45,683 nt of DNA from an uncultured bacterium. GTDB lineage: Bacteria; Planctomycetota; Phycisphaerae; Phycisphaerales; SM1A02. Numbering within the stretch: position 1 is the stretch's first letter; the number at the start of each line of letters is the position of its first letter. Of the stretch, positions 22,169 through 34,183 are shown one piece after another. The position numbers were made by a program, and so were the translations under genes. The DNA lies in contig CAITDI010000053.1 in the NCBI GenBank assembly GCA_903891095.1, positions 1-45,683 of the forward strand. Direction: 5' to 3'. The notes under the pieces were generated by a model. It searched no databases and was not told the DNA's origin. It saw nothing but the letters and a program-made list of their open reading frames with translations.

Positions 22169-24481
22169 ATGCCGCACCCCGACTCGCCGATCATCCTGAG
22201 CGTCGCGATTGCAGCGCTCATTGCGCTGGGGCTCGCGATCGTGCTGCTGCTGCTCTGGCGCAGACGCGAGGAGATGCGCCGTTACGAGCGCAGCCACCGC
22301 GAGCGCACGGAAGCCAAGGAACGCGGTTCCTACAAGGCCCGCCTCATCCATCCCGACATCGACCTGACCAAGTGCATCGGCTGCGGTTCGTGCGTGCACG
22401 CGTGCCCCGAGGACGGCGTGCTCGACCTCCTGCACGGCCAGGCCGTCGTCGTGCACGGCGCGCGCTGCGTCGGCCACGGCCGCTGTGCCGAAGTCTGCCC
22501 GACCGGCGCGATCGCGCTCACCTTCGCGGACCTCAACGAGCGCACGGACCTTCCCGCGGTCACCGAGGAGTTCGAGGCGGTCGATGTGCCGGGGCTGTTT
22601 CTCGCTGGCGAACTCACTGGGTTCTCGCTCGTGCGCACCGCGGTCGGCCACGGAACGACCGTCGCGAACACCGTGCAGCGCCGTCTCAAGTCCGCGGGCG
22701 CGAGCAGCGACGCGGGCGTCGTCGATCTGCTCATCGTCGGCGTCGGACCCGCGGGAATGTCGTGCGCGCTGCGCGCGAAGGAACTCGGGCTGAACTTCGA
22801 CATGATCGAGCAGTCGGAGATGATCGGCGGAACCGTCGCCGCGTATCCGCGCAAGAAGCTCGTGATGACGCAGCCGATGGTGCTGCCGCTGCATGGCCCG
22901 CTCAAGCAGCTCGAGTATCTCAAGGAAGAGCTCGTCGACCTCTGGAACGACCTCGCCAAGCGGCACGCGCTGCCGATCCGCTCGGGCGTGCGCCTCAAGG
23001 ACGTCAAGCGTGGCGATGACGGAGTCTTTACCGCCGACACGAGCGCGGGGCCCGTGCGCGCGCGCAACGTGTGCCTCTGCCTCGGCCGCCGCGGAACGCC
23101 GCGCAAGCTCGGCGTCCCTGGCGAGAACCTGCCCAAGGTCCTCTACAACCTGCTCGACGCGGAGTCGTACAAGGGCCGCCATGTGCTCGTGGTCGGCGGT
23201 GGCGACAGCGCCATCGAGGCCGCGATCGCGCTCGCGGAGCAAGAGGGAAACACGGTCACGCTGAGCGTGCGTGGCCGCGACCTCTCGCGCGTCAAGTCAA
23301 AGAACCAGACGCGCCTGCAGCACTCGATCCTCGAGAAGGGCCTCAAGCTGGTGATGGACAGCGCCGTCGAGCGCCTCGACGCCGACTCCGCCACCATCGC
23401 CGTGACGGTCGACGGCAAGCAGGAGATGCTCGTCATCCCCAACGAGGATATCTTCGTGTGCATCGGCGGCGATCCGCCGTTTGACCTGCTCAAGCGTGCA
23501 GGCGTGTCGTTCGATCCGGCGCGGCGTCCCAAGCCCGCGGCGATGGCCGACAACACGACTCCGCTGATCTGGGCGGTCTCCCTGCTGCTGCTCGTTGCGA
23601 TCGGCATCCTGCTGTGGGCGTCGATCAACCACAGCTACTACGGCGCGAACGCCGCCGCGCGCACGCTCGTGGACGACCATCGCTGGCTGCGGCCGGGCGG
23701 CCAGTTCGGCCTCGGCATGGCGCTCGTCGCGATGTGGCTCTTCGTGTGGAACCTCGCGTACCTCGCGCGCAAGAACCAGTTCCTGGCGCGCTTCCTGCCG
23801 GGATCGCTGCGCTTCTGGATGGGCTCGCACATCTTCACGGGCATCGGCAGCTTCCTCTGCGTGATCCTGCACGCGGGCTTTAGCTACCGCATGACGCTGG
23901 GCGGGTTCGCGTTCGTGACGCTCGGCATCGTGCTGATCGCGGGCCTGGTCGGACGGTACTTCTACGCCATCGTTCCGCGCGCGGCGAACGGCCGCGAGAT
24001 GGACCTCGACGAGCTGCGCACGCGCGTCGCGAACATCGCCAGCGAGTGGGACAAGTCGAGCCGCGGCCTCGGCTCGGTGGTGCGCGACCGCGTCGAGACG
24101 CTGGTGCGCGAGGAGCGCTGGCGCGCGTCGTTCTTTGCGCGCGCGGCTGGGCTCTTCTGGTCGCACATCCGCATCCGCCGCACGCTGCGCGAGCTGCGCA
24201 TGGACCCGCGCTTCGAGAGCGTTCCGGAAGCCGAGCGCGACGAGCTGATGATGCTCGCCAAGCGCTCGCTCAAGCTCACGCTGCAGATCGCGCACTACGA
24301 GGAGTTGCGCGCGATCCTCGGATCCTGGCGCTTCATCCACCGCTGGCTCGCGCTGCTGATGCTGCTGTTCGTGATCGCGCACCTCGTTGTCGCGGTCCGC
24401 TTTGCCAAGCTCGATTGGCCGCTGCCCGCGTGGATCGTCACGCCGGCGACGGCGACGACGACGACGGAGGCCGCGCCGTGA
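22169..24481 (+). CDS. Membrane NAD(P)H/FAD oxidoreductase fused to ferredoxin and diheme-b-like membrane domain
   Basis: A 770-residue fusion. Residues 9-30 form an N-terminal membrane helix. A ferredoxin-type domain follows: CIGCGSCVHACP (69-80) is a full 4Fe-4S motif, while CVGHGRCAEVCP (100-111) has His103 in place of the second Cys. Residues about 185-455 form a thioredoxin-reductase-like flavoprotein (GVGPAG 191-196 for FAD, VVGGGDSAIEAA 341-352 for NAD(P)H). The C-terminal part has membrane helices at about 464-486, 513-533, 554-575, 578-600 and 724-746. His554/His568 and His724/His738 are paired 14 residues apart on two helices, the spacing of diheme cytochrome b. The stop overlaps the next cytochrome gene as GTGA. 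It is probably the inner-membrane entry point of the conduit. No known named family fits the whole architecture. Confidence 0.87.
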   Translation: MPHPDSPIILSVAIAALIALGLAIVLLLLWRRREEMRRYERSHRERTEAKERGSYKARLIHPDIDLTKCIGCGSCVHACPEDGVLDLLHGQAVVVHGARCVGHGRCAEVCPTGAIALTFADLNERTDLPAVTEEFEAVDVPGLFLAGELTGFSLVRTAVGHGTTVANTVQRRLKSAGASSDAGVVDLLIVGVGPAGMSCALRAKELGLNFDMIEQSEMIGGTVAAYPRKKLVMTQPMVLPLHGPLKQLEYLKEELVDLWNDLAKRHALPIRSGVRLKDVKRGDDGVFTADTSAGPVRARNVCLCLGRRGTPRKLGVPGENLPKVLYNLLDAESYKGRHVLVVGGGDSAIEAAIALAEQEGNTVTLSVRGRDLSRVKSKNQTRLQHSILEKGLKLVMDSAVERLDADSATIAVTVDGKQEMLVIPNEDIFVCIGGDPPFDLLKRAGVSFDPARRPKPAAMADNTTPLIWAVSLLLLVAIGILLWASINHSYYGANAAARTLVDDHRWLRPGGQFGLGMALVAMWLFVWNLAYLARKNQFLARFLPGSLRFWMGSHIFTGIGSFLCVILHAGFSYRMTLGGFAFVTLGIVLIAGLVGRYFYAIVPRAANGREMDLDELRTRVANIASEWDKSSRGLGSVVRDRVETLVREERWRASFFARAAGLFWSHIRIRRTLRELRMDPRFESVPEAERDELMMLAKRSLKLTLQIAHYEELRAILGSWRFIHRWLALLMLLFVIAHLVVAVRFAKLDWPLPAWIVTPATATTTTEAAP

Positions 24482-26538
24482 AGCTCCGGTCGCTGTCCAA
24501 GGTCCTCGTGTACCTCTGCCTCTTCGTGGTGGTGGCGGTCGCTTGGTGGGGCTTTGACCAGCGCTCGAGCCCGGGTCCGCTGCACGCATCGCACGCGAGC
24601 GTCGCGGCGCTGCAAGGCAACGCGGGCTGCGTCGCGTGCCACGAGGGCAGCGACTTCACCGCGGGAGTGTCGATGGCGGCGGCCTGCAACAAGTGCCACC
24701 TGCCAATCGCCGAGCAGATGGACAAGCGCCGCGGCATCCACGGCGTGCTCAAGCCCGAGACCGCGAACGACTGCACGCACTGCCACCACGAGCACATCGG
24801 CGACACGCTGGGGCTCGTGACCGTCGCCGCGTTCCAGCGTGCGGGCGTCGGTGCGCCCGAGCTGTTCGACCACGCGCAGGTCGGCGGGCTCAAGCTCACC
24901 GGCAAGCACGAGGAGCTGCAATGCATCGGCTGCCACGTGAACGCCAAGAACACTGCGCTTGCCGAGGGCCACAAGCGCTTCCTCGGGCTCACGCAGGACT
25001 GCACGGGCTGTCACAACGACGCACACAAGGGCGAGCTCGGACCGGACTGCGCCAAGTGCCACGGCCAGCTGCAGGCGTTCAAGGACGCGCCGCTGTTCGC
25101 GCACCCGAAGACCTTCCCGCTCGTCGACGGCCACTCGAAGCGCACGTGCAGCGAGTGCCACACCAACCCCGCCGACAACTTCAAGGGTCTCAAGCTCGAC
25201 TGCGCGTCGTGCCACATGGACGACTTCGACAAGACCACCAAGCCCGCGCACAAGCTCGCGGGCCTCGGCACCGACTGCGCGAAGTGCCACAGCGCGGCCA
25301 ACTGGACCACGACGACCTTTGTGCACGACGCGCGCTTTGCGCTCGAGGGCGCGCACAAGTCGACCGCCTGCGCGACCTGCCACACCGCGGGCGCGCCGCA
25401 GGAATCCGTGCTCGCGCACGGCAAGAACGCCAGCTGCGTCGTGTGCCACGCGTCGCCGCACGATGCGAAGCTCATCGAGGCCGCCGAGCATGTGCGCGGC
25501 GCGGCGAAGGACGCCTGCGTCGTCTGCCACCTCCCCACCGCGACCACCTGGCGCGCGGGCAGCGAGAAGATGACCGTCGCGCTGCACGCTGCGACCGGCT
25601 TCGCGCTCGTCAAGCCGCACGACAAGCAGAAGTGCTCGGAATGCCACGCAGGCCTCGGCCGCGAGCCCGTCGCCACCCGTCGCAGCACGGTCGAGTGGAA
25701 GAGCGATTTCCCGGGCCGCAAGCCCGACGCCTGCGAGGAATGCCACAAGGACCCGCACGCGGGACAGTTCGCCAAGTCCGCGACCGGCGGCGCCTGCCTC
25801 GCGTGCCACACGCGCGTCGTGTGGACGCCGACCAAGTTCGACGCGGCGATGCACGCGAAGTGCGCGTTCCCGATCGACGGCAGCCACCGCGCGGTCGCGT
25901 GCTCCGCGTGCCACAAGATCCCCGATGGGGTCGTCGGCGGCGTGCGGCAGTTCGTCGGCACCAAGTCCGCCTGCGTCTCGTGCCACGAGGACATCCACAA
26001 GGGATCGTTCGACCGCGAGGGCCTGCCCGCGAAGGTCAACGGCAAGTCCGACTGCGCGCGCTGCCATACGACGGCGTCGTTCAAGGAGATCACCTGGACG
26101 GCCGCCGAGCACCTGACCTGGACCGGCGAGGCGCTGACGGGCAAGCATGCCACGGCGTCGTGCAACGACTGCCACCGCCGCGAGCCGCCGGTCGGCCGAA
26201 AGCCGGTCGCGTTCAAGCCCGCGCCGCGCGAATGCGCCGCGTGCCACGAGGACGTGCACCTCGGCCAGTTCAATCCGCTGCAACCCGCCGGCGCGATCGC
26301 GGACTGCGCGCGCTGCCACAAGAGCAACGACTCGTTCGCCATCGTGGCCTTCGACCATCAGAAGGACTCTCGCTTCGCGCTCGACGACGACCACCGCAAG
26401 CTCGCGTGCATCGCGTGCCACAAGCGGTTCGACATCGAGGGTCGCGAGGTCATCCGCTACAAGCCACTGGGCGTGAAGTGCGCAGACTGCCACGACTCGC
26501 GCCCCGACATCCCGAAACCAGGAGGGTCATCGCCGTGA
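24478..26538 (+). CDS. 23-haem cytochrome c, periplasmic
   Basis: A 686-residue protein with an N-terminal hydrophobic segment (VLVYLCLFVVVAVAWWGF) that could act as a signal or as a membrane anchor. I count 23 CxxCH motifs (first CVACH, last CADCH), and many extra His residues that could be distal ligands. The motifs recur about every 25-30 residues, often in pairs such as GLGTDCAKCH, as in cytochrome c3/c7-like families. The start is GTG 24478, overlapping the previous stop by 4 bases. It sits between the membrane oxidoreductase and the barrel, so a periplasmic relay is the natural reading. Haem attachment is presumed to use the Ccs system encoded just downstream. Confidence 0.92.
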   Translation: MKLRSLSKVLVYLCLFVVVAVAWWGFDQRSSPGPLHASHASVAALQGNAGCVACHEGSDFTAGVSMAAACNKCHLPIAEQMDKRRGIHGVLKPETANDCTHCHHEHIGDTLGLVTVAAFQRAGVGAPELFDHAQVGGLKLTGKHEELQCIGCHVNAKNTALAEGHKRFLGLTQDCTGCHNDAHKGELGPDCAKCHGQLQAFKDAPLFAHPKTFPLVDGHSKRTCSECHTNPADNFKGLKLDCASCHMDDFDKTTKPAHKLAGLGTDCAKCHSAANWTTTTFVHDARFALEGAHKSTACATCHTAGAPQESVLAHGKNASCVVCHASPHDAKLIEAAEHVRGAAKDACVVCHLPTATTWRAGSEKMTVALHAATGFALVKPHDKQKCSECHAGLGREPVATRRSTVEWKSDFPGRKPDACEECHKDPHAGQFAKSATGGACLACHTRVVWTPTKFDAAMHAKCAFPIDGSHRAVACSACHKIPDGVVGGVRQFVGTKSACVSCHEDIHKGSFDREGLPAKVNGKSDCARCHTTASFKEITWTAAEHLTWTGEALTGKHATASCNDCHRREPPVGRKPVAFKPAPRECAACHEDVHLGQFNPLQPAGAIADCARCHKSNDSFAIVAFDHQKDSRFALDDDHRKLACIACHKRFDIEGREVIRYKPLGVKCADCHDSRPDIPKPGGSSP

Positions 26539-28181
26539 CACGGCTTCTGATCGTCTGCCTCACGCTGCTGTGGATCCACGGAATCGCAGCGGCACAGTCG
26601 GCCCTCGACGCGACTGTGGTGACGGTCTCCGGAAGAAGCGTATACATCAGCGCAGGCCGCGATGCAGGTGTCATCGCAGGCGCCCGCGTCGTGTTCCGTC
26701 TCCGGACGGGCGAAGTGGTGACCGCGACGATCGTCGATGTGTCGGCCACCAACGCGCGCGCCGAGCTTCCTGAAGAAGCGACGATGCCCGAGCCGCAGGA
26801 CAAGGCAGCGGTGGAAATCACCGATGTTCCGCCCGACGACTCCACCACGACAGGCACCAAGCCCGCAGCGCCGCGCCCCGTGCCTGCGCACCCGCTCTGG
26901 CAGCAGCCCGTCGGCGCGCGCGATCCGAACGCCCCGCTGCTCTCGCCCGCGTTCTCCGCGCGCCCGCAGGACCAGCCGACGACGATCAGGGGCCGCAGCT
27001 ACTCGACCATCCGCGTCATCCGCGACATGCGCAACGACAACGACTACCTGTACGCGCGCAGCGGACTTTGGCTCGAAGTCCGCAATCCGCTCGGCGACGG
27101 CGGACTGATCCGATTCCAGGGCGACGCGCAGTACCGCAGCACCAGCGGCCAGTGGACGAACTCAAACGAATCCGACACGCGCATCCAGCGCTTCAGCTAC
27201 GCGTGGGGCACCGACAAGAACGCGCCGTTCCGCGGCGAAGTCGGACGGTTCTTCTCGGTGTGGCTGCCTGAGCTCGGCATCATCGACGGCGCCGAAGGCG
27301 CGCTGCGGCTCGAGAACGGCCTCAGCATCGGCGCGGGCCTCGGCTACTACCCGAGCACGCCGCAGGGCCTGTACTCGAGCGATGCCTACGGCTTCCATGT
27401 CTTTGCCGACTACCAGCCCGACGACGCGAAGCACACGTTCGAGGCGACCGTCGGCTACCAGCAGACCTACTGGGACCACAACACCGACCGCTCGCTGGTC
27501 GTCGCGCGCGTCACCGCGAACCCCACCGAGGACATCCGCCTGTTCACCATGGCGATGGTCGACCTCTACGGCTCCGAGGACACGCTCAAGCAGAACTCGG
27601 CGGACCTCACGCAGCTGATCTCGCAGGCAAGTTTCCGCTTTACGCCGACGACCGGCGCGACGGCGTCGATCATCCACACCACCTGGCCCGAGCTGCAGCG
27701 CACCGACATGGCGATGCCGCCCGAGCTCGTGGCCGACGGCTACGTCGACCGCCTCTCGGGCACGTTCTGGACCAAGCTCGACGAGAACTGGCGCCTCAGC
27801 CTCCGCTCGCAGGTCTGGCGCGACCAGTCGCGCGAAGGCTACGGCGGCGAAGCAAGCCTCGACTGGACGCTCAACACCGAGACGCCGAGCTCGATCTACG
27901 GCGCGGTGTACTACGAGGATTCTGCCTACACCACCGGCACCGGCGTGCGCCTGCAGGCGCAGACGCAACTTGGAGCATTCCGCCTCTTCGCAGGATACGA
28001 CGGCTTCTACTACACCACGGACACGGTGACTCCCGGCGGCAACGACTACCTCCGTCACACCCTGCGCGCCGACGTGAGTTGGGGCGAAGGATCGTGGTAT
28101 TGGGACATCGACACCTCGTACACCTTCGGCGACGACGAGGAATCCATTAGCATCGGCGTGTCGCTGCAGCACAGGTTCTAA
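26535..28181 (+). CDS. Predicted outer-membrane beta-barrel protein (porin-like)
   Basis: A 548-residue exported protein: GTG start at 26535 overlapping the cytochrome stop, with AGGAGGG upstream, and a signal peptide (LLIVCLTLLWIHGIAAAQS). A small SH3-like beta domain lies at about 28-95 (ATVVTVSGRSVYISAGRDAG) and a Pro-rich linker to about 140. The rest is alternating aromatic beta strands (for example LYARSGLWLEVRN, FRLFAGYDGFYYTTDT) ending in phenylalanine (QHRF), the C-terminal signature of outer-membrane barrels. Sitting between two multiheme cytochromes, it resembles the porin of porin-cytochrome complexes, though I see no direct MtrB motif such as an N-terminal CxxC. Confidence 0.78.
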   Translation: MTRLLIVCLTLLWIHGIAAAQSALDATVVTVSGRSVYISAGRDAGVIAGARVVFRLRTGEVVTATIVDVSATNARAELPEEATMPEPQDKAAVEITDVPPDDSTTTGTKPAAPRPVPAHPLWQQPVGARDPNAPLLSPAFSARPQDQPTTIRGRSYSTIRVIRDMRNDNDYLYARSGLWLEVRNPLGDGGLIRFQGDAQYRSTSGQWTNSNESDTRIQRFSYAWGTDKNAPFRGEVGRFFSVWLPELGIIDGAEGALRLENGLSIGAGLGYYPSTPQGLYSSDAYGFHVFADYQPDDAKHTFEATVGYQQTYWDHNTDRSLVVARVTANPTEDIRLFTMAMVDLYGSEDTLKQNSADLTQLISQASFRFTPTTGATASIIHTTWPELQRTDMAMPPELVADGYVDRLSGTFWTKLDENWRLSLRSQVWRDQSREGYGGEASLDWTLNTETPSSIYGAVYYEDSAYTTGTGVRLQAQTQLGAFRLFAGYDGFYYTTDTVTPGGNDYLRHTLRADVSWGEGSWYWDIDTSYTFGDDEESISIGVSLQHRF

Positions 28182-28195
28182 GCGCGGAGCATCAC

Positions 28196-30112
28196 ATGAG
28201 ACAGTCTCACAAGATCATCCTCGCGTCGCTCGTGCTCGGCTGCGTCGTCGCCTGCGCGAACCTCGTTCCGCGCAAGGGCTGGAGCCCCGACCAGGGCCCC
28301 GTCGTACCGCACGACACCTTCCCCGCCGATTGCTCGCTCTGCCACGAGAGCGGCTCGTGGAACAAGATCAAGGCCGACTTCTCGTTCGACCATGAGAAGG
28401 AGACGGGCGTCAAGCTCAACGGCGCGCACGACACCGCGCAGTGCCTGCTGTGCCACAACGACCGAGGACCGGTCAAGCAGTTCGCCGAGAAGGGTTGCCG
28501 CGGCTGCCACGAGGACGTCCACCGCGGCCAGCTTGGCGCGCTGTGCCAGCAGTGCCACAACGAGGACACCTGGCGTCCGCTGCAGTCGATCGCGGAGCAT
28601 GCGCGCACGCGCTTCCCGCTGATCGGCGGTCACGCGGCCGTCGACTGCACCAGCTGCCACCCGAATGCGTCCGACGGCGTGTTTGTGAACGCGAGCATCG
28701 AGTGCGAGGCGTGCCACGCGAAGGACGTCACGCGTTCGCCCAGCGTCGATCACATCGCGCTCGGACTCACGCAGGGCTGCAACCGGTGCCATACGCCGGT
28801 GTCGTGGACTCCTGCTTCGTTCGTGCATCCTGCGAGCTTCCCGCTCACGGCGGGCCACGGCGGCGTCAACTGCAACTCGTGCCACACGACGCCGGGTGTG
28901 TTCACCGGCCTCTCGACCGACTGCGTGAGCTGCCACTTGCCCAACTTCCAGGCGACGACCAATCCGAACCACGTCGCGGCGGGCTTCTCGACCAACTGCA
29001 AGACGTGCCACAACACCGCGGGCTGGCAAGGCGCGAACTTCATCCACCCGGCGAGCTTCCCGCTCACCAACGGGCACTCGGCACAGGCTTGCAACGCGTG
29101 CCACACCACGCCTGGCGTGTACTCGGGTCTTTCGACGTCGTGCGTGAGCTGCCACCTGCCGCAGTACCAGGCGACGACCAACCCGAACCACGCGAGCGCG
29201 GGCTTCTCCACCGATTGCCAGACGTGCCATAGCACGGTGGCGTGGCCGAACGCGACGTTCAACCATCCCGCGAGCTTCCCGCTGAGCAACGGTCACTCGG
29301 GTCGCACGTGCGTGTCGTGCCACACGACGCCGGGCGTGTGGACGGGACTGTCGACGTCGTGCGTGAGTTGCCACTTGCCGCAGTACCAGGCGACGACGGC
29401 GCCCAACCACGCGGCGTCGGGCTTCTCGACGGACTGCACGACATGCCACACCACATCCACGTGGCTCGGGGCGTCGTTCAACCACCCCGCGACATTCCCG
29501 CTGAGCAACGGTCACGCGGGGCGAGCCTGCAACGCATGCCACACGACGCCTGGCGTGTACACAGGGTTGTCGACAACCTGCGTGAGCTGTCACTTGCCGG
29601 AGTATCAAGCGACCACCAACCCGAATCACGCCGCAGCGGGACTCTCGACGGACTGCAAGACATGCCACAACACCACGGCGTGGCCGGGCGCGAACTTCAA
29701 CCACCCGGCGAGCTTCCCGCTGACGCAGGCGCACGCAGGTCGAACATGCAGCCAGTGCCACACGACGCCCGGCGTGTACACGGGGCTCTCGACATCGTGC
29801 GTGAGCTGCCACTTGGCCAAGTACCAGGCGACGACGAACCCGAACCACACGGCCGCGGGATTCCCGACGTCCTGCCAGACCTGCCACACGCCGACGCTGT
29901 GGACCAACGGCACGTTCAACCACCCGTCGACGTTCCCGCTGACCAACGCGCACGCCGTGCCGCCGTGCAGCAGGTGTCACACGACGCCAAACGTGTTCAC
30001 GGGCCTCACGCCCACATGCCTCAACTGCCACCGCGATGACTTCCAGCGCGGGCACAACAGCCAAGGCAATTCCAACTGCAAGGCGTGCCACAACACGCGA
30101 ACTTGGAACTAA
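28196..30112 (+). CDS. 25-haem lipoprotein cytochrome c with six triheme repeats
   Basis: A 638-residue protein with a lipoprotein-type signal (IILASLVLGCVVAC; Cys16 or Cys20 as the lipid site) and 25 CxxCH motifs. The first seven lie in an irregular N-terminal part (to about residue 205). The rest form six tandem repeats of 73 residues (219 bp period, first repeat cysteine codon at 28871). Each has three CxxCH sites in the order CNSCHTTPGV, CVSCHLP, CKTCH, and the repeats share ATTNPNH and HPASFPLTNGH; the sixth is degenerate and ends the protein. It starts 15 bp after the barrel gene. A surface-exposed terminal cytochrome is the likely role. Confidence 0.92.
   Translation: MRQSHKIILASLVLGCVVACANLVPRKGWSPDQGPVVPHDTFPADCSLCHESGSWNKIKADFSFDHEKETGVKLNGAHDTAQCLLCHNDRGPVKQFAEKGCRGCHEDVHRGQLGALCQQCHNEDTWRPLQSIAEHARTRFPLIGGHAAVDCTSCHPNASDGVFVNASIECEACHAKDVTRSPSVDHIALGLTQGCNRCHTPVSWTPASFVHPASFPLTAGHGGVNCNSCHTTPGVFTGLSTDCVSCHLPNFQATTNPNHVAAGFSTNCKTCHNTAGWQGANFIHPASFPLTNGHSAQACNACHTTPGVYSGLSTSCVSCHLPQYQATTNPNHASAGFSTDCQTCHSTVAWPNATFNHPASFPLSNGHSGRTCVSCHTTPGVWTGLSTSCVSCHLPQYQATTAPNHAASGFSTDCTTCHTTSTWLGASFNHPATFPLSNGHAGRACNACHTTPGVYTGLSTTCVSCHLPEYQATTNPNHAAAGLSTDCKTCHNTTAWPGANFNHPASFPLTQAHAGRTCSQCHTTPGVYTGLSTSCVSCHLAKYQATTNPNHTAAGFPTSCQTCHTPTLWTNGTFNHPSTFPLTNAHAVPPCSRCHTTPNVFTGLTPTCLNCHRDDFQRGHNSQGNSNCKACHNTRTWN
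28871..30090 (+). repeat. Six 219-bp coding repeats (triheme modules)
   Basis: Repeat starts fall at about 28871, 29090, 29309, 29528, 29747 and 29966, an exact 219-bp period at protein level (73 residues). Nucleotide identity between central copies is visibly high. The array suggests recent tandem duplication. Confidence 0.88.
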
Positions 30113-30147: not shown

Positions 30148-31854
30148 TCAGCTGGCCGCCGCAAGGCTGCGCCAACGCGCCGTCGGAACCAGCGCGCAGG
30201 CGACCAGCGCGAGCTGCACCAGGCAGAACGTGACCAGCGCGAACACCGCCGAGTCCATGAACCCGTACGAGTGCAGTCCGACGCCAAGCATGTTGGTGCC
30301 GAACCACGACCACGAGGTGACGATGTTGCCGGCGATCGCGAGCGCCGCGACGCCGCGGTCGCGGATCATGCCGCCCCAGCGCGCGTGAAGGATCAGCAGG
30401 TTCCAGACGACGATCAGCGCCGCGCCGTTTTCCTTGGGATCCCAGCCCCAGAAGCGGCCCCACGACTGGTCGGCCCAGATGCCGCCGAGCACCGTGCCGA
30501 CGAAGCTCGCGAACGCCGCGAAGCAGATCACGCCGTAGACCATCTTGGGCAGCGCCTTCATGGCCTCGCCGCGGAGCAGCTTGGTGAACACCCCGCCGAC
30601 GACGTAGAAGACCGCGATGAAGCCCGCGAGGTACGTCGCCGAGTAGCCGATCGTGACCACGACGACGTGCGTCGCGAGCCAGAAGTTCGAGTCGAGGACG
30701 GCCTGCATCATCTCCATCGTGTCGCCCGACGCCGACAGGTTGTGCGCCACGACGAGCGTCGCGAAACCGATCAGCGACGCGGCCATCGACAGCACGCCGA
30801 TGCGAGAGAACCACTCGCCGACCAGGGCGAGCGGAACGCACGCCCAGCCGATGAACACCGCGGAGCTGTAGAGGTTGGTGACCGGCGGACGGCCCTGCAG
30901 GTAGATGCGCGAGGCGAGGCCAAACGTCTGGATCGCGAACGCGACCGCGATCAGCACGAGCGCGCTGCGGAGCAGGCTCGGCTTCCAGCGGTCGGGCGAC
31001 ATCGGCGACACGAGCATCGCCACGCAGCCGAGGAGGAACGCCACGAGATACAGGATCGATGCGTTGTAGAACGGCTCGCAGCGGCTCATCACGACTTCGA
31101 ACGCGCTGGCAGCGCCGGCGCTCGGAAGCTTCGCGTCGAGCACCGCGTGGTACTCCGCCACGCGACGCGTGCAATCGGCGGCGTCGCCCAAGGCGTAGCT
31201 CGCGAGAATCCCGCGCAGCGCGAGCGCCGACTCGGTGTCGAGCGGCTTCGCGTGCGGATCGGTGCCGAGCAGCGGCGCCCACTCCTCGCCCGCGGCGAGC
31301 GGCGCGACGGTGTACGGCTCGCGCAGGTTCTGGACCTGCACGTATTCAGACAGCTTGCCGTAGAGATCGGTGATCTGCTTCTGGAAGGGATCCTGCTTCT
31401 TGCGCGAGATCTCGGAGGCGAGCTGCGCCTGACGGAAGATCTCCTCGAGCTTGGGCGCGATCTCGCTCCAGCTAAAGCGCGTGCGCGTCGCATCGGTCAG
31501 CGCGAGCAGCGAGCGGACATCGGGGTGGTCGATGCGGAAGACGCGGCGCTCGGCCGCGGCCTCGGGCTTGGTCCAAAGCTCGAGCAGCCATTCGATCGCG
31601 GGACGGCTGCCGCCGTCGCCCTCGTAGGTCTGCTTGCCGCTCATGCGCAGCAGCTCGTTGCGTGCGTAGGTGTCGAGCGGCTTGGTGCGGCCGCCGGCGG
31701 AAACGGGAATGCGCGCGAGGCCCTCGAGCGGCATCGCTCCTGAGCTGCCTCCACCGAGATCACCCGCGCCAATGCCGCGCGCGAAGATCGAGACGACGAA
31801 CGCCACCACGCAGATCAGGACGATCGCGGGAAACCAACGCGGGAGATTCTTCAC
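30148..31854 (-). CDS. ccsA: Cytochrome c biogenesis protein CcsA/ResC-like
   Basis: A 568-residue membrane protein of system II cytochrome c maturation. The C-terminal half carries the haem-handling WWD domain (WGRFWGWDPKENGAAL, from residue 465) with many membrane helices and His residues in helices and loops (VAHNLSASG, ATHVVVV, ILHARWGG, GLHSYGF). An N-terminal helix and a soluble periplasmic insert of about 200 residues (30-260) precede the core, longer than simple CcsA. The GTG start at 31854 overlaps the ResB stop as GTGA. It lies convergent to the multiheme cytochromes, 35 bp from the last one. ResB and CcsA together form the haem lyase. Confidence 0.92.
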   Translation of the reverse strand: MKNLPRWFPAIVLICVVAFVVSIFARGIGAGDLGGGSSGAMPLEGLARIPVSAGGRTKPLDTYARNELLRMSGKQTYEGDGGSRPAIEWLLELWTKPEAAAERRVFRIDHPDVRSLLALTDATRTRFSWSEIAPKLEEIFRQAQLASEISRKKQDPFQKQITDLYGKLSEYVQVQNLREPYTVAPLAAGEEWAPLLGTDPHAKPLDTESALALRGILASYALGDAADCTRRVAEYHAVLDAKLPSAGAASAFEVVMSRCEPFYNASILYLVAFLLGCVAMLVSPMSPDRWKPSLLRSALVLIAVAFAIQTFGLASRIYLQGRPPVTNLYSSAVFIGWACVPLALVGEWFSRIGVLSMAASLIGFATLVVAHNLSASGDTMEMMQAVLDSNFWLATHVVVVTIGYSATYLAGFIAVFYVVGGVFTKLLRGEAMKALPKMVYGVICFAAFASFVGTVLGGIWADQSWGRFWGWDPKENGAALIVVWNLLILHARWGGMIRDRGVAALAIAGNIVTSWSWFGTNMLGVGLHSYGFMDSAVFALVTFCLVQLALVACALVPTARWRSLAAAS

Positions 31855-33035
31855 GAGACCTTCCTCCGCACCGAGCTGATGAGCCGTGAGCCGAAGTGGA
31901 CGAGGAGACCGAGCGCGACCAGCGCGCACGAGACATACGGGAGCAGCCAGCCGGGATTGCGCACGACCTGCAGCACGGTGCCGCTGTCATCGGGCGCGAA
32001 CGACGCCTGGTAGAACGTCTCGCCCGCGTAGCGCAGCGGGTTGTTCATCGAGATCAGCACCTCGCGGTCGACGCGCTCCGACGGATCGGTCAGCCGCACG
32101 AGGCTCGAGAAGTTGCGCGCCGTCTCGGTGCCGACGAAGCGGTCGTGCTTGAAGTCGATCAGCTTGACGGTGTACGGGCGGTAGCCGCGCTCGAAGCGCA
32201 GCGCGATCTCGTAGCGCTTGCCGCCGACATCGACCGTCTGCGGCACGTTGATCCGCGGCGTGACGAGGTAGGTTCCGAGCGACGCGTCGCCGCGCTTGAG
32301 CTCGACGTATGCAGCGGGAATGTCGATGTCCGCGCCGTCGACGCCAGTCGCGACCGCGACGGGCGCCGCAGCGACCTGCGTGCCGACGCCTGCCGTCGCC
32401 TTGGCGAGCTGGCCCTTCGAGGCCTGCATCGGTCCGAGCATGCGCGAGTTGGGCATCCACTCGACCACGCGCACCGAGAACGGCAGCATGCCGTTGGTGA
32501 TCGCATCGCCACCCGCCTGGCCGAGCATGCGCGCAGGCACGACGACGACGAGGTCATCGCCAGGATCCGACGTGTCGATCACCGCGAGCTCGCAGCTGCG
32601 CGTGTCCTCGATGTAGTTGGCCGACTCGCCCTCGGCGATCGTCATGTTGCCTTCCTTGGCGAAGGCGCCGGTGACGAACTCGCCGACGAGCAGCAGCAGC
32701 ACGCCCGCGTGCGTCGCGATCATGCCGGCGCGCTTCCACGAAAGCGTGAAGCGCACGGCGTGCGCGGCGAGGAGGTTCACGAACAGCAGCACGCCCAGCG
32801 TGAGTCCGCCCGGGAACGGGAACACGCCGGGGATCCGCACGATCTTGGTGGGCACGAAGAGCTGGAACGGGATCGCCACGTACAGCGAGCGGAAGTAGCG
32901 CTCGACGACCATCCACACGCCCTGCTCGGTCTGCGCGAGCGTGCCCGCGAGGATGAGCACCATCGAAAGCGCGAGCAGCACGACGGTGAGCCGCAGCGAC
33001 GAGAGGCTCTTGAGAATCGAGTTGAGCTTGTTCAT
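31851..33035 (-). CDS. resB: ResB/Ccs1-like cytochrome c biogenesis protein
   Basis: A 394-residue membrane protein. Three N-terminal helices (LTVVLLALSMVLILAGTLAQ; LTLGVLLFVNLLAAHAVRFT; IATHAGVLLLLVGEFV), a large extracytoplasmic beta domain and a C-terminal helix (LPYVSCALVALGLLVHFGSR) match ResB. Histidines in LAAHAV, ATHAG and LVHFG are candidate haem ligands. ResB and CcsA form the system II synthetase that moves haem outward and attaches it to CxxCH. Both ends overlap neighbours by 4 bases, so the three genes are one operon. Confidence 0.85.
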   Translation of the reverse strand: MNKLNSILKSLSSLRLTVVLLALSMVLILAGTLAQTEQGVWMVVERYFRSLYVAIPFQLFVPTKIVRIPGVFPFPGGLTLGVLLFVNLLAAHAVRFTLSWKRAGMIATHAGVLLLLVGEFVTGAFAKEGNMTIAEGESANYIEDTRSCELAVIDTSDPGDDLVVVVPARMLGQAGGDAITNGMLPFSVRVVEWMPNSRMLGPMQASKGQLAKATAGVGTQVAAAPVAVATGVDGADIDIPAAYVELKRGDASLGTYLVTPRINVPQTVDVGGKRYEIALRFERGYRPYTVKLIDFKHDRFVGTETARNFSSLVRLTDPSERVDREVLISMNNPLRYAGETFYQASFAPDDSGTVLQVVRNPGWLLPYVSCALVALGLLVHFGSRLISSVRRKVS

Positions 33036-34183
33036 TGAGCAGCTCCCATGGCGACGGTGCGCACGAAGGCGGCGAAGTGCTCGCGTTCGGCTTCGACGCC
33101 CGCGACGCTGCCGCGCAGCTTGAAGAACCACGTCGAGCGGTCGACGGTCACGAAGGCCGCGATCATGCGGTCGGTGCCTGCAGGATTGGCGAGATCGACG
33201 ACCTTTACACCGGGCACGAGGTCGGCGAACTGAACCTGCGAGAGCGCGGGCACGTCGGCCAGGCCGAGTTGTCCGCGCCAACGGTTGATGTTCGCGAGGT
33301 CGCCGCCGCCATCGTTGGCGAGCGAGGTCGCGGTGATGCGCGCGCCGCCCGCCGCGTTGGTCGCGGTGAAGGCCGCGGCGACGATGCCGCCGGTCTGCGC
33401 TTCGGACGCCCAGTTGGTCGGCGCGGCGTAGTGCGCGAGGCGGCCTTCGATGGGGTTCATGCCTTGCTGCGCGGCGGCTTGCTGCGTCGGGGCTTGTTGC
33501 AAAGGCGTCGCCTGCGCGGGAACGCTCGCAAGCGGCGCAGAAGCCTGTGCTCCCGCACCCTCCACGCGGAACGTCTTCGCAAATGCATCGAACGTCGGCC
33601 GCAACGCTGCGGCGGCAGTTGCGTCGGTGGTCGACTTCACGAACCAAGTCTTGCCGTCGCCTGGGGTGATGATCGCGCCGAGCATGACCTGCCCTTGGCC
33701 GCCGGTCATCGCGAGCGTGGAGACCTCGGTGCTGTTCACGCGCGTGGTGGTCAGGAGCGATGCGAGTTCGGCCTCGCCGATTTCGCCGATGCCGATCTGC
33801 CCGCGCCAGCGATTGACGTTCGCGAGCGTTCCTCCAGCGGGACCGGGGAACGCGGTCACGGTGACCTCAGCGCCCGACGCGTCGTAGGTCGCGATGCGCA
33901 TCGGCTGGTTCGACTGGACGGTCTTCCACGCGGGCGGCACATCCCACACGACGGTCGCGGAGGACGACGACGGCGCGAGATCCTGGCCAGCGGCTCCGTT
34001 TCGAGCGGGGAGCTCGGGGTTCATGCCGCCCATGCCGCCACCCGCCATGCGCGGAGCAGGCGCCGACTTGGGGACGCGATACGAGTGGATCTCCTCGCGG
34101 TCGCACGCGGCGCCAAACACCGCGACTCCGACCAGCGCGAAAGCGGTCAGGGTCCCGAGCTGCGGGCGAGTCATCCGTGTCAT
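33032..34183 (-). CDS. Lipoprotein-like protein with duplicated domain, in the ccs operon
   Basis: A 383-residue exported protein. A hydrophobic signal ends at GAAC (Cys27), a possible lipid site. Two related domains follow at about residues 70-205 and 245-380. Each opens with W..P..W (VVWDVPPAWK; APTNWASEAQT) and contains an N-x-NRWRGQ element (NVNRWRGQIG, NINRWRGQLG), then a KTWFVK / STWFFK strand. The Gln/Pro/Ala linker between them is low complexity. No thioredoxin CxxC is present, so it is not a CcsX/ResA-type reductant. It overlaps resB by 4 bases. The first ATG of the signal (34183) was chosen over an upstream GTG. Function unknown. Confidence 0.78.
   Translation of the reverse strand: MTRMTRPQLGTLTAFALVGVAVFGAACDREEIHSYRVPKSAPAPRMAGGGMGGMNPELPARNGAAGQDLAPSSSSATVVWDVPPAWKTVQSNQPMRIATYDASGAEVTVTAFPGPAGGTLANVNRWRGQIGIGEIGEAELASLLTTTRVNSTEVSTLAMTGGQGQVMLGAIITPGDGKTWFVKSTTDATAAAALRPTFDAFAKTFRVEGAGAQASAPLASVPAQATPLQQAPTQQAAAQQGMNPIEGRLAHYAAPTNWASEAQTGGIVAAAFTATNAAGGARITATSLANDGGGDLANINRWRGQLGLADVPALSQVQFADLVPGVKVVDLANPAGTDRMIAAFVTVDRSTWFFKLRGSVAGVEAEREHFAAFVRTVAMGAAQ

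Follow-up and report, generated by a model that had tools for sequence, protein, structure and literature searches.

The closest described system to the locus analysed here is PCC3, a class of porin-cytochrome conduits known from Proteobacteria (He et al. 2017, PMC5566968) and treated in a survey of Gallionellaceae (PMC10734462). According to the open text of these sources, a PCC3 cluster comprises a separate inner-membrane protein (IMP) of ~300 aa with five helices, two WX3HX13H motifs and an SGXXG motif in the fourth helix, together with an outer-membrane β-barrel, a periplasmic multihaem cytochrome (MHC) with ~21-27 haems and a many-haem extracellular MHC. The likeness of the IMP motif to NADPH oxidases and ferric reductases is remarked upon in the same text (PMC5566968). 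It also describes PCC4, in which a motif-like IMP stands beside Fe-S and other redox genes and which has some members in Planctomycetes; thus, a redox protein beside such an IMP has precedent. In the literature covered, neither an experiment on any PCC3 nor a tested function is reported, and the electron entry point has so far been a guess, the quinone pool. Among planctomycetes, a two-gene pcc cluster is listed for the anammox organism Kuenenia (Shi et al. 2014, PMC4245776), and porin-cytochrome genes are reported in Oslofjord planctomycete MAGs (PMC10732223), in the parts of these papers covered here.

The four-gene block in the window

The window is the whole stretch of 45,683 nucleotides, contig C53 of a 3.6-Mb assembly that is 98.6% complete. 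Four ORFs, A to D, lie on its (+) strand. The A stop (24481) and the B start (GTG, 24478) overlap by four bases, as do the B stop (26538) and the C start (GTG, 26535), and 14 bases separate C from D. The initial annotation, which had proposed a four-gene trans-envelope electron path, was exact as to these ORFs, overlaps and gap, and also as to the CxxCH motifs, of which there are exactly 23 in B and 25 in D. The window copy is the sole full-length match to A in its own assembly. The features of the region are as follows.

22169-24481 (+): gene A, 770 aa, predicted membrane-bound NAD(P)H/FAD/Fe-S oxidoreductase joined to an inner-membrane domain of the PCC3 dihaem-b type
22373-22498 (+): two Fe-S motifs of A, C69xxCxxCxxxCP and the three-Cys C100x5C106x3CP, by motif reading
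22505-22732 (+): counterpart of the segment closing the FAD domain in TrxR/GltD, placed before GxGxxG in A (putative circular permutation)
22709-23539 (+): residues 181-457 of A, domain predicted to bind FAD and NAD(P), with a YpdA/TrxR fold
23564-24403 (+): PCC3-type inner-membrane domain of A, residues 466-745, five hydrophobic helices
24478-26538 (+): gene B, N-terminally anchored cytochrome with 23 CxxCH, predicted to be periplasmic
26535-28181 (+): gene C, predicted outer-membrane barrel, with an N-terminal β domain (residues 23-94) and 22 strands (150-547)
28196-30112 (+): gene D, lipoprotein-like cytochrome, 25 CxxCH
28331-28792 (+): near-constant 7-haem module of D, CxxCH spacings 37,18,16,34,19,25
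28871-30091 (+): extension of D, six three-haem repeats with spacing 31,17,25 (the last 31,17,20)
30148-33647 (-): ccsB and resB, convergent to the block, overlapping ORFs 30148-31929 and 31851-33647, a second cytochrome c maturation copy

Gene A starts with an N-terminal hydrophobic segment followed by ferredoxin-type motifs, and Pfam recognises a Pyr_redox_3 domain in it (E 1.7e-37). Three Cys instead of four make up the second Fe-S motif, C100-x5-C106-x3-C110 (22466-22498); in the window and its relatives, His or Val stands where a second Cys would be expected. From the first motif, too, the second Cys is missing in three Anaeromyxobacter-like fused proteins and in 20 split relatives, whose FAD/Fe-S module and IMP are separate proteins. 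In a fold search, the matches to A were filled by the FAD domain and covered only residues 181-457 well; the closest solved fold of this part was that of YpdA/TrxR (7a7b_A, Z 22.5, rmsd 4.6, 267 aligned). Using a profile of 18 relatives, the segment ahead of this domain matched GltD 406-448 (whole-sequence E 2.4e-5) and TrxR-B3 271-320 (E 0.0032); judged from these profiles, the FAD domain of A is circularly permuted. Residues R368 and R374, invariant among the aligned relatives, may bind the NADP phosphate. Against the YpdA equivalog TIGR04018, A scored 131.1 bits, below the cut-off of 339.9. This score, the membrane fusion and an NAD(P) domain in which no CxxC pair was seen by eye led us to reject A as a thioredoxin or bacillithiol reductase.

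The membrane part of A carries the motifs W550-x3-H554-x13-H568 and W720-x3-H724-x13-H738 on five predicted helices, as PCC3 IMPs do, and these six residues are invariant in 28 aligned relatives. In a profile comparison, the membrane halves of six planctomycete A proteins matched eight IMPs from betaproteobacterial PCC3-like clusters, which were recognised by their features and not by published gene names, with probability 99.4 and E 1.3e-21 over 253 columns. One betaproteobacterial IMP used as a query also found A in the planctomycetes Pla86 (two copies, E 2e-11 and 1.4e-9) and Poly30 (E 1e-10) and in the genome of locus L101 (4e-7). Ferric_reduct was absent among the 25 of 38 Pfam matches listed for A. 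The SGXXG of the PCC3 fourth helix is not matched in the window, where the sequence is AGLVG; most planctomycete relatives have TGxxG and most split relatives SGxxG. This is a conservative change, and we did not treat it as excluding PCC3 kinship. A is not a separate ~300-aa IMP: its membrane domain is fused to the FAD/Fe-S module, and the block is therefore a variant of PCC3 and not a plain member.

The 23 CxxCH motifs and N-terminal anchor of B correspond to the periplasmic MHC of PCC3, its location being predicted. D combines its 25 CxxCH with a lipoprotein-like signal and is a candidate counterpart of the many-haem extracellular MHC; its start is a hydrophobic signal with two lipobox-like sites, LVLGC and VVAC, found by eye. 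Shuffled proteins of the same composition contained on average 0.25 (B) and 0.37 (D) CxxCH motifs, with maxima of 2 and 5 in 1000 shuffles each. B scored 52 bits against the MtrA/DmsE decahaem family TIGR03508 (cut-off 192.2) and 46 bits against the MtrC/OmcA family TIGR03507 (cut-off 209.3), D not being among the matches listed, and no match of D to PDB sequences was found at E 0.01.

The AlphaFold model of C, computed from 34 sequences, is a 22-strand β-barrel (strands within residues 150-547, mean pLDDT 85.5) with a small N-terminal β domain (residues 23-94). The transmembrane barrel proposed in the initial annotation is thus recovered by structure prediction, and with it the outer-membrane β-barrel of a PCC3 cluster. 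The fold matches listed for C are outer-membrane barrels, namely TonB receptors, ushers and porins (5t3r_D, Z 20.1, rmsd 4.6, 365 aligned; 5fp2_B, Z 19.7, rmsd 4.8, 343 aligned). TonB receptors have 22 strands, and a modelled barrel fold by itself reveals no function. C has no match at E up to 1 in Pfam, which includes the MtrB_PioB family, or at E up to 0.1 in NCBIfam, and no MtrB-type entry is among the 50 fold matches listed. Four weak matches of the barrel profile to PDB sequences (best E 0.082) concern the small N-terminal domain. Planctomycete and betaproteobacterial barrels matched more weakly than the IMPs (probability 95.6, E 1.2e-8, 215 columns). In the initial annotation no homology to the specific proteins of the Mtr and Pcc conduits was recognised; this stands for the MtrA/MtrC-type families, whose cut-offs exceed the scores obtained, and for the Pfam barrel families, but it overlooked PCC3, to which the membrane half of A is homologous.

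Conservation and variation in Planctomycetota

We searched for the barrel in 392 planctomycete genomes and found it at E 1e-3 in 45, including the window's own, the weakest of which may be unrelated barrels. For synteny, the best 40 matches outside the own genome were used (E 1.1e-31 or better, 30 genomes). The order A-B-C-D on one strand was found in 33 of these 40 loci, with the 4-base overlaps recurring at A/B in 25 and at B/C in 23 of the 33; the genes are kept together, and the synteny check proposed in the initial annotation comes out in its favour. Of the seven exceptions, five (L054, L056, L065, L069 and L073) are truncated at a contig end or have an A that spans two frames, and L036 has A placed after D. 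The seventh, L045 (5236-8803), has the barrel and a 25-haem D with other genes upstream and without A and B; the same genome has a complete cluster (L066). Complete clusters in complete genomes were found in Poly30 (L080, CP036434.1) and Pla86 (L097, CP036296.1), and the matches suggest a second copy of A in each. We take Pla86 to be a cultured strain. Poly30 bears the name 'Saltatorellus ferox' in the covered part of PMC10896814. MAGs of the Oslofjord name series (OFTM74, 79, 151, 161 and 341) are among the best 80 loci of our survey described below, and such planctomycete clusters may already have been counted in PMC10732223, as far as its covered text goes.

The loci fall into two subtypes, with either a D of 10-37 haems or a 7-haem D', and eight genomes contain both. 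D' is present in 17 of the 40 loci, and 14 of the 17 also encode a ~950-aa 11-haem protein with no phmmer match to B or D. This protein (L097 15860-18817 and 13 other D' loci) reaches 28 bits with the Pfam MtrC/MtrF II-IV domain, whose cut-off is 30.

Haem spacing was compared after leaving out nine proteins touching contig ends and the B of L054. Among 56 non-redundant D proteins from planctomycetes, 46 share exactly the six spacings given above for the 7-haem module, and the remaining 10 deviate from them by no more than two residues. To this module 0 to 30 further haems are added: the window D has 7+18=25, and other D proteins mix two- and three-haem units. Haem totals of D equal 1 modulo 3 in 46 of 56, and those of B equal 2 modulo 3 in 55 of 56 planctomycete proteins (79 of 82 overall). 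As D' consists of the 7-haem module without repeats, we infer that this module plugs the barrel and that the repeats extend outward. The D proteins of planctomycetes offer natural wires of graded length, from 7 to 37 haems on one constant module, of use for relating conduction to length.

Among 16 genomes of the window's genus, two have A. In the second of these, G403, the conduit occupies the same site and A is 72-74% identical. In the record, its B and its C (L154, contig C8, 9513-13285) each run over two frames, which reflects either an assembly error or beginning decay. In G398 (L155, contig C37, 7301-7580), a decayed, frameshifted start of A lies between yidD and ccsB, and B, C and D are gone; we read this remnant, from its sequence, as a deletion scar. 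Given the conduit in G403 and the remnant in G398, the common ancestor of these two and the window genome probably had the block. Between the window and G403, dN/dS is 0.21 for A, 0.25 for B, 0.28-0.31 for C and 0.17 for D, rough values at dS ~0.9-1.3, and 0.16 for the neighbouring chloride channel; dN/dS of 0.17-0.31 indicates purifying selection on the conduit genes. Chance ORFs are ruled out by synteny and dN/dS; the four-gene block is real, it is conserved, and selection acts on it.

Of the 16 congeneric genomes, 13 have PF01578 proteins (9 of 9 of the better ones). The conduit-side ccsB copy occurs only in the window genome (G000), G403 and G398, with a similar second match in G399, so that the second ccsB/resB is limited to genomes with the conduit or its remnant, with one possible exception. 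It is perhaps a maturation system dedicated to the conduit. Of the 40 stretches with a conduit, 10 contain ccsB-like genes.

Partnership of the FAD/Fe-S module with PCC3-type membrane proteins

An alignment of A was searched against 84,980 species, one genome each, and the best 80 loci were kept (L074-L153). In 33 of these (L074-L106, 30 planctomycete by record), A is fused wherever the contig permits. The other 47 (L107-L153) include two planctomycete loci, L120 and L139, both split. Within the fetched stretch, 37 of the 47 have an IMP, separate or fused, and 37 have a protein with at least 5 CxxCH. Seven of the ten loci without an IMP are near contig ends; the remaining three (L123, L143 and L146) have ample flanks and no IMP nearby, and the genome of L146 has an IMP cluster on a different contig. 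Jointly, FAD module, IMP and multihaem protein occur among these 80 loci in at least 11 phyla as recorded, namely Planctomycetota, Acidobacteriota, Calditrichota, Fidelibacterota, Zixiibacteriota, Gemmatimonadota, Nitrospirota, Ignavibacteriota, Bacteroidota, Myxococcota and Pseudomonadota, a sample chosen through A.

The partnership was also approached from the IMP side in 200 genomes of one betaproteobacterial order, with a seed (L147) itself found via its FAD gene. An IMP was present at E 1e-30 in 10 genomes, seed included. In all ten, the FAD/Fe-S gene divergently adjoins the IMP, the IMP has two WX3HX13H motifs and SGXXG, and a 24- or 27-haem cytochrome is accompanied by at least one further multihaem protein (11-62 haems). 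A protein of 715-894 aa is at the barrel position in eight of the ten, two of these being cut by the stretch end. Beside such betaproteobacterial IMPs, L161 (12434-17497) and L162 (2473-7536) encode very large cytochromes with 62 CxxCH in 1687 aa each, and L166 (12516-19664) one with 54 CxxCH in 2382 aa.

The FAD tree comprised 93 of 95 rows, L105 and L106 being too short. Fused proteins form two separate groups in it, one a clade of planctomycetes (SH-aLRT 100), the other consisting of three Anaeromyxobacter-like rows (100). The tree counts three fusion changes; one of the three concerns L104, a gene cut by a contig end and scored as split, and we read two. By this tree, the module became fused to the IMP on two separate branches, in Planctomycetota and in Anaeromyxobacter-like bacteria.

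In the open literature covered here (including text of PMC5566968, PMC10734462, PMC12442390 and PMC8788666), neither a flavoprotein nor an NAD(P)H-using partner is described for PCC3, and no PCC3 is placed outside Proteobacteria. Our results suggest a new point, that the permuted Fe-S/FAD/NAD(P) module is a regular partner of the PCC3-type IMP. The view of the initial annotation that an NAD(P)H module is foreign to such systems agrees with these PCC3 descriptions, but not with the ten betaproteobacterial genomes, in each of which the FAD/Fe-S gene adjoins the IMP.

Proposed electron path and comparison with described systems

The components of the trans-envelope path first proposed are borne out by motifs, domains, the predicted barrel and four-gene synteny: sequence, synteny and structure prediction support the parts, their order and co-inheritance, the barrel fold and the PCC3-type homology of the membrane half. 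We read the block as a PCC3-class porin-cytochrome conduit whose IMP is fused to an electron-input module and which would serve NAD(P)H-driven, quinone-independent export, with a probability of about 0.6. NAD(P)H would reduce FAD in the permuted YpdA/TrxR-like domain of A, and electrons would pass through its Fe-S centre(s) to two b haems on the two HX13H helices, then to the membrane-anchored 23-haem B in the periplasm, and from B to the 7-haem N-terminal module of the lipoprotein D, lodged in the 22-strand barrel C. The three-haem repeats of D would deliver them to an acceptor outside the cell: humics, Fe/Mn oxide, a mediator or a second cell. Such a path would work without quinones, and its net effect would be that NAD(P)H is oxidised at the cell surface, either to keep redox balance or to respire. 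We infer the cofactor loading, the use of NADPH or NADH, the cytochrome within the barrel, surface exposure, direction and acceptor; that electrons leave the cell is suggested by the architecture.

Export fed by NAD(P)H is supported by the gene order in 33 of 40 loci, the 22-strand model, the invariant WX3HX13H pairs, the IMP profile match and the weaker barrel match, the FAD/Fe-S gene beside all ten betaproteobacterial IMPs, fusion on two branches, the constant 7-haem module and purifying selection. Counting against it are the three-Cys second Fe-S motif and the first motif without its second Cys in many split relatives, the three FAD loci without a nearby IMP, the partial barrel similarity to betaproteobacterial barrels and the retention of A in only two of 16 congeneric genomes. 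The host has two haem-copper oxidase genes; it can therefore probably respire oxygen and has no evident need for a further electron sink.

Potential and membrane voltage favour electron export from NAD(P)H. An arrangement that we consider improbable is the same conduit working inward: a donor outside the cell (Fe(II), Mn(II), a cathode or a partner cell) would feed electrons through D, C and B to the b haems and to NAD(P)+ at A, with the membrane potential paying. Against this counts that reduction of NAD(P)+ by Fe(II) is strongly uphill. PCC3 was proposed from iron oxidizers (PMC5566968), and in the covered text on Sideroxydans CL21 one PCC3 IMP gene is up with iron-oxidation ability (PMC12442390), whereas both PCC3 clusters of ES-1 are down on Fe(II) in that on ES-1 (PMC8788666); from these partial sources, the evidence on a role in iron oxidation is mixed. 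The membrane half of A could still exchange with quinones, and He et al. argue in the covered text for quinone activity from cytochrome b similarity (PMC5566968). It is slightly less probable again that the b haems of A work with the quinone pool and that the FAD/Fe-S module is accessory, regulatory or for repair: the module contains the full NAD(P)H-FAD-Fe-S set, lies beside the IMP or is fused to it in at least 11 phyla among the best 80 loci, and in the fused proteins is on one polypeptide with the haems. Least probable, and in our estimation very unlikely, is that the cytochromes store or deliver electrons within the periplasm and the barrel serves another purpose. The predicted barrel would permit this, as would a D whose surface exposure is deduced, but almost every complete locus has C along with B and D, aligned D starts have a lipoprotein-like signal, and most 7-haem D loci add the 11-haem protein.

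With a flavoprotein beside the IMP and fused to it on two branches, the entry point of PCC3 becomes testable. If NAD(P)H reduces the b haems, a quinone-free discharge of NAD(P)H to extracellular acceptors would be open to bacteria in at least 11 phyla. More tentatively, at somewhat worse than even odds, PCC3 may be a branch of a cross-phylum, quinone-independent, NOX-like class of extracellular electron transfer, in which electrons go from NAD(P)H through permuted FAD/Fe-S and dihaem b into c-haem wires whose modular build lets their length vary, rather than a quinone-linked iron-oxidation conduit; the flavoprotein would be its overlooked fifth component, and Planctomycetota would carry one transmembrane enzyme.

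Among described systems, MtrCAB, MtoAB and PioAB share the porin-cytochrome principle with the window block, but they are decahaem families with CymA as quinol donor; we rejected membership on the TIGR03508/TIGR03507 scores, the C without Pfam match and the haem counts. OmbB-OmaB-OmcB (Pcc) of Geobacter likewise combines a porin with two cytochromes, of 8 (periplasmic) and 12 (outer) haems against 23 and 25 CxxCH here, counts by which membership was rejected, and no NAD(P)H module is mentioned in the descriptions covered. In the covered text of PMC5566968, PCC4 has no MHC outside the cell but three in the periplasm, with 4, 5 and 10 haems; this sets apart the window block with its two MHCs. 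YpdA bacillithiol disulfide reductase and TrxR share the fold of the FAD/NAD(P) domain of A, but they are soluble, without Fe-S or membrane part, and not circularly permuted. NADPH oxidases and ferric reductases resemble the proposed A in that cytoplasmic NAD(P)H and FAD feed two b haems on HX13H helices; A differs in its flavoprotein fold, the added Fe-S and the delivery of electrons to c-haem wires. The likeness is greatest with PCC3, which in its covered descriptions shares with the window block the predicted barrel, the predicted periplasmic MHC, a second MHC with many haems, the five-helix IMP with two WX3HX13H motifs in A and a low ratio of residues per haem (25.6 and 29.9 in the window, 22-39 reported). 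The window block belongs to another phylum, its barrel is smaller than the betaproteobacterial proteins (548 aa against 715-894 aa), and its D is variable on a constant 7-haem module. Thus, the membrane half, barrel and cytochromes are PCC3-like, and the NAD(P)H module and its fusion to the IMP, not mentioned for PCC3 in the text covered, distinguish the window block.
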